Assembly: GCA_020425085.1 (NCBI GenBank)
Contig: JAGQRW010000007.1
Location: 124,001-188,000 of the forward strand
Direction: 5' to 3'
Length of the DNA stretch: 64,000 nt
Origin: Paracoccaceae bacterium
Lineage (GTDB): Bacteria > Pseudomonadota > Alphaproteobacteria > Rhodobacterales > Rhodobacteraceae
Numbering within the stretch: the first letter of the stretch is position 1; the number at the start of each line of letters is the position of its first letter. Under the pieces are notes generated by a model, which was not told the origin of the DNA, searched no databases, and saw nothing but the letters and a program-made list of their open reading frames with translations. Shown here piece after piece: positions 20,180 to 28,694 of this stretch. The translations under genes and the position numbers were made by a program.

Positions 20180-20770
20180 TCAGCGCGATGCGCGGCGATC
20201 GCGGCGCGACGACATCGGCTGGAACGCCACCGCAACATGCGCTTCGCAATAGGGCTTGCCCTGCTGTACCGGATGGCCGCAGAACCAGAAGTCATCGGTC
20301 GCGGGATCACCGATCGGCCATTTGCAGGTGCGTTCGGTCAGTTCCATCAGCTTCAGGCGGCGGGCGGTCTTTTCCACCGCTTTCACATTCGCCAGCGCCT
20401 CGGCGCTGATTTCGTTGGCGCTGGGTTGCGGCGGCAGCGGCTGGCCTGCCTTGATGATCGGCTTGCGCGGCGGGATCGGCAGATTGCGCGACGGAATGAC
20501 CGTGGCGTTAGGATTCGCCGGTTCCTCTTGCTTGGGCTTGGCAGCGACAGCGGCGGGTTTTTCGGCTGTTGTGTCCTTTGCCGCCGGTTTGTTTACGGTT
20601 GTGGCAGGTTTTGCCGACGCTGCGGCGCGGTTGGACAGGCCCAGGCGATGCACCTTGCCGATCACCGCATTGCGGGTCACGCCCCCCAGTTCCTTGGCGA
20701 TCTGGCTGGCGCTTTTGCCATCGCCCCACATGGTTTTCAGGATTTCCACACGTTCATCGGTCCAGGACAT
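20180..20770 (-). CDS. gcrA: GcrA cell-cycle regulator
   Basis: A 196-residue GcrA. The first 45 residues form the helix-turn-helix that recognises promoters containing methylated GANTC sites (MSWTDERVEIL, then WGDGKSASQIAKELGG and TRNAVIGKVHRLGLSNR). A Pro/Ala/Lys-rich linker of about 80 residues follows, and the C-terminal part carries the sigma-70-binding module with RTCKWPIGDPATDDFWFCG and GKPYCEAHVAVA. GcrA acts with RNA polymerase-sigma70 and the CcrM methyltransferase to time cell-cycle genes. It is divergent from the ABC permease gene, with about 132 bases between. Confidence 0.96.
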   Translation of the reverse strand: MSWTDERVEILKTMWGDGKSASQIAKELGGVTRNAVIGKVHRLGLSNRAAASAKPATTVNKPAAKDTTAEKPAAVAAKPKQEEPANPNATVIPSRNLPIPPRKPIIKAGQPLPPQPSANEISAEALANVKAVEKTARRLKLMELTERTCKWPIGDPATDDFWFCGHPVQQGKPYCEAHVAVAFQPMSSRRDRRASR

Positions 20771-23969: not shown

Positions 23970-24024
23970 TCGCCGCAACAAGGCATGGTCATAGTAACAG
24001 CGCTGCTGCATGAGGGATGAGGCA

Positions 24025-24951
24025 ATGAAGCATTTTCTTGATATCGACAAGACCGACAGCGGCGATTTGCGCGGCATCATAGATCAGGCACGGGACATGA
24101 AGGCCGCCCGCGCCGGGCGACCGAAAGGCGCGCCCGATGATGTGTTGCCGCTGGCCGGGCATATGGTGGCGCTGATCTTTGAAAAACCGTCAACCCGGAC
24201 CCGGGTATCGTTCGATGTCGGGGTGCGCCAGTTGGGTGGGCAGACCATGGTGCTGTCGGGTGCCGACATGCAGCTTGGCCATGGCGAAACCATCGCCGAC
24301 ACGGCGCGGGTGCTAAGCCGGTATGTCGATCTGATCATGATGCGCACGTTTGAACAGGACACGCTGCTGGAGATGGCGGAATACGCCACGGTGCCGGTGA
24401 TCAACGGGCTGACCAACCGCACCCATCCCTGCCAGATCATGGCCGATGTGATGACGTTCGAGGAACATCGCGGCCCGATTGCCGGGCGCAAGGTGGTGTG
24501 GTCGGGCGATGGCAACAATGTCTGCGCCTCGATGGTGCAGGCGGCGGGGCAGTTCGGGTTCGACTTCACCTTCACCGGTCCGGCGCAACTGGATCCCGAG
24601 GCGGAATTCATCGGCGAGGCGCGCCGCAAGGGTGTCAACATCAGCGTCGAGCGTGACGCGCGGAAGGCGGTCGCGGGGGCCGATCTGGTGATGACCGATA
24701 CCTGGGTTTCCATGCATGACAGCCAGTCATCGCGCGAGCGGCGGCACAACATGCTGCGGCCCTATCAGGTGAATGCGGAACTGATGCGCCATGCCAAGCC
24801 GGACGCCTTGTTCATGCACTGCCTGCCGGCGCACCGCGATGAAGAGGCGACATCCGAGGTGATGGACGGCGCCAATTCGGTGGTGTTCGACGAGGCGGAA
24901 AACCGGCTGCACGCGCAAAAGGCGGTGATGCGCTGGTGCCTTGGGCTTTGA
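24025..24951 (+). CDS. argF: ornithine carbamoyltransferase
   Basis: A 308-residue enzyme that makes citrulline from ornithine and carbamoyl phosphate. It has the carbamoyl-phosphate loop [14 protein letters not shown], the HPCQIMAD stretch, and the ornithine-binding HCLPAHR near the C-terminus. The start at 24025 (MKHFLDIDK) is preferred to one 15 bases upstream because it matches the family's N-terminus and has an AGGA-like site (GATGAGGCA) before it. It is next to argD. Confidence 0.96.
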
Positions 24952-25156: not shown

Positions 25157-26623
25157 TCAAAGGTCGAGCTTGCCCTGGGCGCGGTGGTCCGCCTCACGCG
25201 GGGCTTTTTTGAAGGTGTCGTCACGCCGGGCGGGCAGGATCAGGGCGCGGTCGCGCAGATCCATTGCCTGCTGGATGGTGACGATCTGGATGCGCGGCAC
25301 CGGTGCGAAACCTTCGACGGTGCATTGGCCGGCGCTGGCGGCCTCGGCCACCATGGGTTTGGTGGGCTCCGTCAGGGTGAGGAAGATGCCGATCGCGGCA
25401 CCTTCGCGTTCAATGACGCCGCGCAGGTCGCGGATCATGGCGACGCCGACGTTTTCACCGGCCTTGACGCTGACGATGGCGCGGTCGGTTCGCCCGAAAT
25501 AGATGTTGCCGTCGATGCCCTTGTCGGCACCTTTTTTCGACTGGTTGCCGGGCTGGGCGTTGATCAGCGACAGCGCCCATTTTTCAAACTCGAAATAATA
25601 ATTCTTGTCGTCGCGGCCGCGATTGGCCAGATCGCGCGCACCGGCGATGTCCTGTGGCACGCCGTGGGTGGTGAATTCGACCTTGGGAAAGGCATCGCGC
25701 AGGCGCTTTTCGATCAGGCCGATGGCAAGGTGGGTGACATCAATGCCGATCCACTGGCGGTCGAGCTTTTGCGCCGCATGGACGGTGGTGCCGCAACCGC
25801 AGAACGGATCGAGCACCACATCGCCGGGGTTGGACGAGGCGTTGATGATGCGTTCCAACAGGGCGACGGGTTTCTGGGTGGGGTAGCCAAGGCGCTCTTT
25901 TGAGACAGGTGCAATAACTGGAATGGGCCAAACAGTATTCAATGGAACAGTCGACTCATCGCTAGTTTCTGCGGTTGGGTTTCGATGTCCAGTTTCATCG
26001 AATGTTACATTTTGCTTCTTACCCTTCCAACGCTTCTTGGAGCTTTCGGACGCTTCTTGATAGAGAGTGTTAAAGACACCGGGTTCAGAACTCTTGGTAT
26101 AATAGAAAATTACGTCGTGCATTCTTTGGAAACGCCTAGCTTTTGTCGGCCACCGCCGATAACTCCAGATTATTTCATTTTGGAAATTTGCCGCCCCAAA
26201 TACCGCATCCAGCAATATCTTCAGGTAATGGCTCGCGGTCGGATCGCAATGCAGATAGAGGCTGCCGGTGGGTTTCAACACCCGGTGCAGCTCCAGCAGG
26301 CGCACCGCCATCATCGCCAGATAGGCCATCATGTCGTTGTCGCCCAGAAACCCGCGCATGGCGTTCAGCATCGAGGCGGCGGCGCCGTTGCCCGAACGGC
26401 GCACCTCCTGAAAGGCGGACTCGGCTGAGTCGTTCCAGTGCCAGGTGTCATCGAACGCCTCGATCTGGGCGGCGCTTTGGTTGCCTTGCGGGCCTTTGAA
26501 CAGCACGTTGTAGCTGGCGTTGGAATTGAACGGCGGATCGAGATAGATCAGATCGACGCATTCATCGGCAATGCTTTTGCGCAGCACCGACAGGTTGTCG
26601 CCATAATAGAGGTGATTGGTCAT
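25157..26623 (-). CDS. beta-class DNA methyltransferase fused to a nuclease-like domain
   Basis: A 488-residue site-specific DNA methyltransferase. The motif order is DPPF (29-32) early, then a recognition region (about 150-240), then FCGCGTT (274-280), typical of the beta class (N6-adenine or N4-cytosine). The last ~150 residues are not part of the methyltransferase fold: they contain GADKGIDG (365-372) and AIVSVKAG (382-389), followed by VAMIRDLRGVIERE, resembling the Mrr-like PD-(D/E)xK layout with an x-V-K catalytic element. DNA at 25921-26220, covering about residues 135-235, has 133 G+C of 300 by my count (44%), against 70% in a sample 5' of it, so the recognition part looks imported. 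No separate restriction gene is adjacent. Confidence 0.85.
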   Translation of the reverse strand: MTNHLYYGDNLSVLRKSIADECVDLIYLDPPFNSNASYNVLFKGPQGNQSAAQIEAFDDTWHWNDSAESAFQEVRRSGNGAAASMLNAMRGFLGDNDMMAYLAMMAVRLLELHRVLKPTGSLYLHCDPTASHYLKILLDAVFGAANFQNEIIWSYRRWPTKARRFQRMHDVIFYYTKSSEPGVFNTLYQEASESSKKRWKGKKQNVTFDETGHRNPTAETSDESTVPLNTVWPIPVIAPVSKERLGYPTQKPVALLERIINASSNPGDVVLDPFCGCGTTVHAAQKLDRQWIGIDVTHLAIGLIEKRLRDAFPKVEFTTHGVPQDIAGARDLANRGRDDKNYYFEFEKWALSLINAQPGNQSKKGADKGIDGNIYFGRTDRAIVSVKAGENVGVAMIRDLRGVIEREGAAIGIFLTLTEPTKPMVAEAASAGQCTVEGFAPVPRIQIVTIQQAMDLRDRALILPARRDDTFKKAPREADHRAQGKLDL

Positions 26624-26783: not shown

Positions 26784-27665
<882 letters not shown>

Positions 27666-27667
27666 TG

Positions 27668-28528
27668 CTACAGGCCGTGACCGCCGCCATAGGCGTTTTT
27701 GGCCGGGGGTTGCCAGCCGGTTAATGCGCCGTCCCTGGGTTTGAACACCTCGATCAGCAGCGGATGGCAGGTGGTGTTGTCGCTGGAATGTTCATTCGAG
27801 CAGTCGCCGCCGGGGCAGGCCGACAGGGCCGCGAGCAAGTCGATCTCGGCAAAGAATTCGATATGGTCGCCCGGGCGGACCGGGCTGGCCTTCATGATGT
27901 ATTGGTGGGTATCCAGGCTAAAGCCGGTGCACATGAAGACGTTGAGGACATCGTGCACAAGTGCTTCGGCCTGCCCCAGCGGGATGGCGGAACAGGCGGC
28001 AAGGGCGCGGATCAGGTTCGAGTGGCAGCAATGGTGGTAATCGGTGCCGTTCAGCAGGCGGTTGGTATAGGGATCGCAGCGCGTGCCGATCACGTCATGC
28101 ACCGAGCAGCCGTCAGCGTCCCAGCCGTACCAGTCGAGCGTATCATCGGTAATCGTCGCCATTGGCCGCATGTTCGGAAAGCTTGACCACAGGCAATCGC
28201 CGGTAGAGACATGGGTGCCGTGCAGGGCGCGGGTCTTGCCGGAATAGAACCGCTCAAGCGGGTCATCGGCATTCCAGAGGTTGAGGTCGCCAACCTGCGG
28301 CCCGTCAACCGAAGTGATGCGAAAGAAATGCCCTTGGGGTATGCGGATGCAGCGCGCCTTGCGCGGGGGGACCAGCACTTCGTCCATCTTGTCAAGCTGT
28401 TGGCGTGCCGAAAGGTACAGCGTCATGGGGCGAGCGGGCAGCGTGGTTGCAGGATAGCAGATCACCGGCTTGATGGCCCTGCGGGCGCTTGCATCGGCTG
28501 GGGCCGGGTTGGTTGACGGCGGTTTCAT
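27668..28528 (-). CDS. DUF1989 (urea carboxylase-associated) family protein
   Basis: A 286-residue protein of the DUF1989 family, related to the UAAP1/UAAP2 proteins found with urea carboxylase. Landmarks are PQGHFFRITSVDGPQVGDLNLWN, and a Cys/His-rich stretch (DYHHCCHSN, and NVFMCTGFSLDTHQYIM) which probably binds a metal. In this window there is no urea carboxylase or allophanate hydrolase nearby. The start at 28528 is preceded by GGAG at 7 bases. Convergent with mtnP. Function not established. Confidence 0.88.
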   Translation of the reverse strand: MKPPSTNPAPADASARRAIKPVICYPATTLPARPMTLYLSARQQLDKMDEVLVPPRKARCIRIPQGHFFRITSVDGPQVGDLNLWNADDPLERFYSGKTRALHGTHVSTGDCLWSSFPNMRPMATITDDTLDWYGWDADGCSVHDVIGTRCDPYTNRLLNGTDYHHCCHSNLIRALAACSAIPLGQAEALVHDVLNVFMCTGFSLDTHQYIMKASPVRPGDHIEFFAEIDLLAALSACPGGDCSNEHSSDNTTCHPLLIEVFKPRDGALTGWQPPAKNAYGGGHGL

Positions 28529-28694
28529 GTTGCGACTCCTCGTGATCCCTGGCTGTATCTTTGTCGCCGGGATTGGCAATGACAAGCGTCATCCGGCAAA
28601 TGCGCTTGTTGAACCCAGGGAATTTCGGATACACAGGGCGGGTGCGATCTGTCTGCCAGCGGCGGCAGGCAGGCTTGGGGGGCGGGTCAAGGCG

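Follow-up and report, generated by a model that had tools for sequence, protein, structure and literature searches.

A beta-class DNA methyltransferase fused to an Mrr-type nuclease domain: a candidate single-chain restriction-modification enzyme with an exchangeable recognition segment

Restriction-modification enzymes of Type IIC/IIG, such as MmeI, BpuSI and Eco57I, carry nuclease and methyltransferase in one chain and share one specificity module between both activities, as outlined in part of PMC4081073. They have no ATPase domain, and they cleave unmodified DNA with stimulation by AdoMet. According to the same part of PMC4081073, Type IIC enzymes mostly combine a gamma-class methylase with an N-terminal nuclease, and their specificity is free to diverge, since any change in it affects cleavage and methylation alike. 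BtgZI, an exception within Type IIC, has an N-terminal methylase followed by a C-terminal PD-D/EXK variant in which Glu is replaced by Gln (PMC4081073, in part). In the Type ISP enzymes LlaGI and LlaBIII an Mrr-like nuclease, typically of the PD-QxK kind, is fused to a methylase; here the nuclease is N-terminal, the methylase belongs to the gamma class, the recognition domain is C-terminal and a translocase is present in addition (PMC3874165, in part). E. coli Mrr, a Type IV enzyme which attacks modified DNA and carries a winged-helix domain, possesses an Mrr_cat domain with PD-QxK (PMC12707154, in part). Finally, Cfr10I, NgoMIV and Ecl18kI (PD-xxK-E) lack the acid before xxK, which is supplied from elsewhere, while the Lys is kept (PMC551604, in part).

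The gene described here lies in a window (the whole stretch of DNA analysed) of 64,000 nucleotides and encodes, from an ATG start, a protein of 488 amino acids on the minus strand (25157..26623), which is matched by the Pfam families N6_N4_Mtase and Mrr_cat. A spurious ORF was considered and rejected; the plus-strand reading over 25157-26623 is merely the complement of this gene. The initial annotation had proposed a methyltransferase with about 150 extra C-terminal residues, and both statements stand: the extra residues are present (about 330-488), the sequence motifs on which the proposal was based lie where it had placed them, and both Pfam matches are beyond chance. The protein shares with Type IIC/IIG the single chain without any Pfam ATPase domain. 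It departs from these enzymes, in most of which a PD-D/EXK nuclease at the N-terminus precedes a gamma-class methylase with NPPY, by a beta-class methylase with DPPF, a recognition segment inside the methylase and a C-terminal Mrr-like nuclease. BtgZI, likened to the fusion by description and not by sequence, differs in its alpha-class methylase. A helicase-like translocase as in Type ISP is absent, since Pfam finds no helicase or ATPase domain in the 488 residues, and in contrast to E. coli Mrr the nuclease domain is joined to a methylase. The best reading of the sequence is an enzyme that would work like Type IIC/IIG and departs from it in the class of its methylase, the order of its domains and the family of its nuclease. 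A description of a beta-class methylase with a C-terminal Mrr-like nuclease was not found in the literature searched (mostly open journals, with REBASE outside its scope), so that a prior listing is possible.

The methyltransferase part is matched by N6_N4_Mtase over residues 23-298 (1.3e-51). Its N-terminal half (residues 1-149; 26177..26623, minus), delimited by Pfam, alignment identity and the model, contains motif IV, the catalytic DPPF at residues 29-32 (26528..26539, minus), whose D29, P30 and F32 occur in 223 of 226 relatives, the other three having gaps. The C-terminal half (residues 244-318; 25670..25894, minus), delimited by Pfam and alignment identity, contains the SAM-binding motif I, FCGCGTT at residues 274-280 (25784..25804, minus), with G276 in 226/226 and G278 in 223/226. 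The variable segment is located in between, and the order motif IV, recognition segment, motif I defines the beta-class amino-methyltransferases. Judged by profile match and motif order together, the protein is a beta-class amino-methyltransferase, and from DPPF the methylation product is probably N6-adenine. Seven NCBIfam families matched the protein, all of them methyltransferases and every one below its curated cut-off; the best 25 of 75 PADLOC matches were likewise all methyltransferase families, and the best PHROGs match was phrog_67, a DNA methyltransferase. Furthermore, a model of the full-length protein (pLDDT 79.7) gave EcoP15I Mod, RsrI, CcrM, BceJIV and MboIIA as structural matches.

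The resemblance of the C-terminal part to an Mrr-like PD-(D/E)xK fold, which had also been proposed together with a profile and structure comparison for its verification, is borne out by both approaches. The nuclease domain (residues 343-452; 25268..25597, minus) matches Mrr_cat above the curated cut-off (3.2e-8, 34.1 bits against 21, residues 344-430), as do 87/87 relatives of the domain at E up to 0.1. More weakly, the same region of the full protein matches the Pfam family NA-iREase1 (2.9e-6, 27.7 bits against a cut-off of 27; 29.2 bits for the nuclease domain alone), which is also matched by 87/87 domain relatives, with a best-member E of 1.2e-13 versus 2.3e-11 for Mrr_cat. This family of NACHT-associated inactive REases is named for a lost active site, whereas here D371 and K387 are kept in 226/226 relatives. 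A domain-only model built from the 87 relatives (pLDDT 90.4) shows the order helix-strand-strand-helix-strand, and its closest fold in the PDB is EcoO109I (4e-4), followed by EcoT38I, BspD6I, FokI and Ecl18kI. Only three matches, all of them EcoO109I, reached an E of 0.001, and the TM-scores for the restriction enzymes named are modest (0.42-0.54). From rank 6 on the non-catalytic RPB5 appears among these matches; it was obtained again in the comparison with viral models, together with several proteins named restriction endonuclease. The sequence profile of the domain gave two PDB matches, both Vps33 (E about 0.08-0.09), which were taken as chance.

For the analysis of the active site 226 distinct full-length relatives were aligned, obtained from 328 candidate ORFs in 411 loci once identical sequences and those loci that lack a full-length ORF had been removed. 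They comprise 138 rows from viral contigs, 77 from genome contigs, seven from genome searches, three from phage records and the window protein, and form 209 clusters at 90% identity and 157 at 70%. The acidic motif D367-x-G-x-D371 (25511..25525, minus), which includes GIDG (369-372), and the half-motif S385-V386-K387 (25463..25471, minus), which overlaps VKAG (386-389), are located on the translation, with IRDLRG following at 397-402. D367, G369, D371, K387 and G389 are invariant in 226/226 relatives, and V386 occurs in 225. For comparison, 22 rows were fetched with the NA-iREase1 family, two of which are members of the fusion family and one of which does not cover the site; in the remaining Mrr-type proteins D and K stand at the same aligned positions in 19/19 rows covering the site, although two of these (L218, L223) look like one ORF counted twice. 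Since these proteins retain D and QxK in 19/19 rows, the label "inactive" does not describe the ones sampled. Two options had been left open at the outset, a protein that methylates and cleaves or a methylase with a decayed nuclease. The active bifunctional enzyme is favoured by the alignment, with D371 and K387 in 226/226 and a third carboxylate that looks compensated; a decayed nuclease is disfavoured and, with D367, D371 and K387 invariant, was rejected at the level of the family.

In the Mrr-type half-motif the second residue before the Lys is Q (or E/D), with D or E in PD-(D/E)XK enzymes generally and Q in Mrr, whereas the window protein has Ser at this position. Across the 226 rows residue 385 is Ser in 155, Gln in 65, as in the PD-QxK of E. 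coli Mrr, and Glu in six. An acid in the following helix, at the position of R398-D399 in the window protein (25427..25432, minus), varies with the type of row: it is found at 398 or 399 in 152/155 S-type and 62/65 Q-type rows (three rows of each type being the exceptions) and in 0/6 E-type rows. Fisher tests gave 5e-9 (E versus the rest) and 6e-7 (S-type versus outer Q rows), with rows that are related by descent. In a FastTree tree calculated without columns 385, 398 and 399 there were three changes to or from E385, and in three independent pairs the helix acid was absent where E385 was present (mean 3.0 of 3 over 200 pairings); the sign test on these pairs gave p 0.25, as three pairs cannot reach significance. 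The other Mrr-type rows are all QxK; for them the helix acid is optional, being present in 11/19. It seems from this distribution that the third carboxylate has been relocated to the following helix in the S-type, in a pattern as in Cfr10I-like enzymes, and such compensation would be hard to explain if the domain bound no catalytic metal. The half-motif of Cfr10I reads SVK, as in the window protein; Cfr10I, NgoMIV and Ecl18kI are stand-alone Type II enzymes, whereas the fusion family varies between S, Q and E at 385 and has its acid 11-12 residues after the Lys. The S/Q/E switch inside one family would offer a direct test of how PD-(D/E)XK sites relocate a carboxylate. The six relatives with a classical ExK half-motif are L236, L237, L241, L369, L062 and L075, and the helix acid is absent from all of them.

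Between the two methylase halves lies the hypervariable target-recognition segment (residues 150-243; 25895..26176, minus), whose composition is foreign-like (GC 0.45 and GC3 0.42, the GC3 of the core being 0.78 and that of the nuclease part 0.81). The segment is AT-richer than the core in 71/79 genome rows and 66/80 viral rows, the window ranking 11 of 79, so that a low segment GC is common in the family, not unique to the window gene, and may in part be amino-acid bias. When the window protein is compared with L022, identity reaches 88% and 92% in the two methylase halves and 84% in the nuclease, but only 13% over residues 152-243; more generally, 301 of 460 pairs with close core and nuclease have less than 35% identity in the segment, gaps being counted as differences. 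Single linkage of 78 genome sequences at 60% resulted in one core cluster, three nuclease clusters and 37 clusters of the recognition segment. In AU tests of a clade with the sphingomonads the segment was compatible (p 0.565), the nuclease rejected it (p 4.8e-11) and the core was neutral (p 0.256), with quick methods, short alignments, a segment tree of few columns and long branches, and a sphingomonad group that was named after the likeness had been seen in the alignment. As the core does not reject this clade, the mosaic claim rests on the nuclease versus the recognition segment. On these alignments the segment is a swapped cassette, mosaic relative to core and nuclease. If one segment sets both marking and cutting, extreme diversity is to be expected, as described for Type IIG in part of PMC4081073. 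Anti-restriction methylases could also show a variable segment, but would not need a conserved nuclease.

The window's genome contains one full copy of the gene, besides which only 53 residues of a different ORF match. The gene is flanked by argF (24010-24951, plus) and the gene of methylthioadenosine phosphorylase (26784-27665, plus) within a housekeeping region with argD, leuA, mreB and mreC. In the genus, three of ten genomes, the window's included, gave a match at E <1e-50, two of the ten being under 85% complete, and both other copies are broken. In G004 (L412 1903-2946) the recognition segment is interrupted by a transposase-type ORF (rve/DDE-type), and the copy in G007 (L416 1256-1720, minus) is an N-terminal remnant that resembles the window protein over residues 1-100 and diverges from it beyond them. 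While argF occurs in 10/10 genus genomes, with argD beside it in all ten, what follows argF varies, and a clean empty site for the insertion is therefore not definable in these ten genomes. Of 190 genomes drawn from the class, ten, counting the window's own, match at E up to 1e-60, and several of these matches are confined to the methylase part. The few genomes matched and the broken genus copies indicate that the gene is patchy and often lost. The family profile matches another, small genome of the class (G183, 1.7 Mb, one contig) four times at E up to 1e-60, in three places. In G048 (L413) the methylase part and the nuclease part overlap briefly and are encoded in different frames, which may be a broken copy or a natural two-gene version. 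In three of the 80 genome loci (L037, L043 and L078, the last being a named Sphingomonas strain) one stop codon splits the gene into two consecutive ORFs of the same frame.

When each bacterial or archaeal species was represented by a single genome, 408 stretches were seen to encode a relative, fused or not (tblastn E up to 1e-3), and viral contigs contained 302 such stretches, 80 of each being kept for analysis; three further viral scans yielded 62, 54 and 58 loci. At 1e-30 the phage collection has 35 matching records, of which 28 match over at least 80% of the query, and Mycobacterium phages Dori and Amgine, Streptomyces phages of the Werner kind and Marinitoga MPV1 are among the carriers. 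The phage records annotate these relatives as methyltransferase or methylase. Of the 32 plasmid records with a match seven cover at least 80%, and the rest match mainly the methylase part, which means that the methylase exists without this nuclease too. The Psychrobacter plasmid pA40P2 (L417 1714-3688) carries a related methylase beside a separate restriction endonuclease gene of the ApaLI family, a two-gene counterpart of the fusion.

The neighbour clusters of the relatives were identified in part. The most recurrent genome-locus neighbour identified is an H+-pyrophosphatase gene, which is located 0.1-2.4 kb away in 16/80 loci (L064-L066, L068-L073, L078, L080, L092-L095 and L097), all of them Sphingomonas or sphingomonad records, and which also lies beside the broken copy in G048. 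It was rejected as a partner, because it is absent from the window's own genome, and taken as a fixed chromosomal site. In L042 gatB adjoins the gene, and a neighbour in L028 and L062 matches DUF4177 weakly. Next to the viral relatives, a CI-like S24 repressor recurs most often (11 loci), followed by a tyrosine integrase (nine) and a serine recombinase (nine); together these occur in at least 24/80 viral loci, a lower bound because the flanks are at most 4 kb. Four of the 35 phage records were examined by their annotation, and an integrase lies within 4 kb in 4/4, with an immunity or CI-like repressor near the gene in two. Temperate phages often keep lysogen-protecting cargo near the integrase or repressor, and the neighbourhood of lysogeny genes fits a defence role.

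We regard it as probable, judging from these sequence comparisons, that the fusion is a single-chain, ATP-independent restriction-modification enzyme with one recognition segment for both activities and a helix-supplied carboxylate. The beta-class methyltransferase would read the DNA sequence via its interchangeable middle segment (residues about 150-243) and methylate the site, while the Mrr-type nuclease at the C-terminus, which this segment would also keep on the DNA and which probably acts as a dimer, would cut the unmethylated site. Its active site would consist of D371 and K387 with the third carboxylate provided by the following helix (D399) and not by the strand (S385). An exchange of the shared segment would alter both activities at once, and this would account for how extremely diverse the segment is. 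As a tentative extension, it seems possible that the segment cassette is exchanged across Alphaproteobacteria and phages, that the third carboxylate moves between strand and helix in one family, and that temperate phages, which would carry the gene beside integrase and repressor, use it as a lysogeny-linked marker of self and non-self against their rivals. If the enzyme cuts, more than 200 distinct genes of bacteria and phages, which read as plain methylases in the annotated records, would be complete one-gene defence systems, and counts of "orphan methylases" would need correction. With its exchangeable segment set in a frame of about 500 residues that otherwise stays the same, the family would provide specificities in the manner of a natural library.

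The restriction-modification reading has to account for the broken state of both other genus copies, which shows that the gene is easily lost and was counted against it. Several observations would suit a solitary or anti-restriction methyltransferase whose Mrr-like domain does not cut and only helps to hold DNA, as inactive PD-(D/E)XK domains do. Phages commonly carry protective methylases and relatives were found in 302 viral stretches, Ser replaces Glu/Gln in the half-motif, RPB5 is among the fold matches, and the "inactive" family NA-iREase1 matches the window protein as well as all 87 domain relatives. However, the sampled proteins matched by that family retain D and QxK in all 19 rows covering the site, and the invariance of D371 and K387 together with the apparent compensation of the carboxylate is beyond what a mere DNA-holding domain would need; a non-cutting domain thus appears unlikely to us.

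Membership in the Mrr_cat family raises the further question of whether the nuclease is modification-dependent (Type IV-like, as Mrr) and cuts foreign methylation, while the methylase marks its own genome or competes for sites. E. coli Mrr and MspJI-type enzymes with an Mrr-like nuclease are modification-dependent, as described in part of PMC12707154, but in these enzymes a separate domain, a winged helix or an SRA domain (PMC12707154, in part), senses the modified base. Pfam found no winged-helix or SRA-type sensing domain in the fusion protein, and a nuclease cutting the product of its own methylase would be expected to kill the cell, which renders this alternative distinctly improbable. It is very improbable, finally, that the fusion belongs to a multi-gene system and depends on a nuclease, helicase or regulator encoded by another gene. 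Partner proteins are indeed used by Type III Mod and BREX methylases, and nuclease genes were seen near some relatives, namely MRE11-type genes in 2/4 annotated phages (about 1.4 kb away in Amgine and 3.4 kb in Werner), an S1/P1-nuclease gene adjacent to the relative on a Bradyrhizobium plasmid and one SNase-domain protein as a viral neighbour. These nucleases, however, differ from place to place, and the recurrent neighbours identified are housekeeping or lysogeny genes (H+-pyrophosphatase, gatB, integrases, repressor). Moreover, no nuclease or helicase family is present among the 19 neighbouring ORFs of the window scanned with Pfam, and hence no separate Res helicase-nuclease gene beside a mod gene as in Type III; the scan covered these 19 neighbours out of the ORFs of the window, and three of them without a Pfam match overlap other ORFs. 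The statement of the initial annotation that there is no separate restriction gene nearby holds for this set.

Two further genes near the fusion gene are worth recording. The gene of the cell-cycle regulator GcrA (20180-20770, minus) is located about 4.4 kb from it; GcrA acts with CcrM methylation, and a link with adenine methylation could be asked. A DUF1989 gene (27668-28585, minus) adjoins the methylthioadenosine phosphorylase gene and is weakly similar, below the cut-off, to urea-amidolyase-associated proteins.
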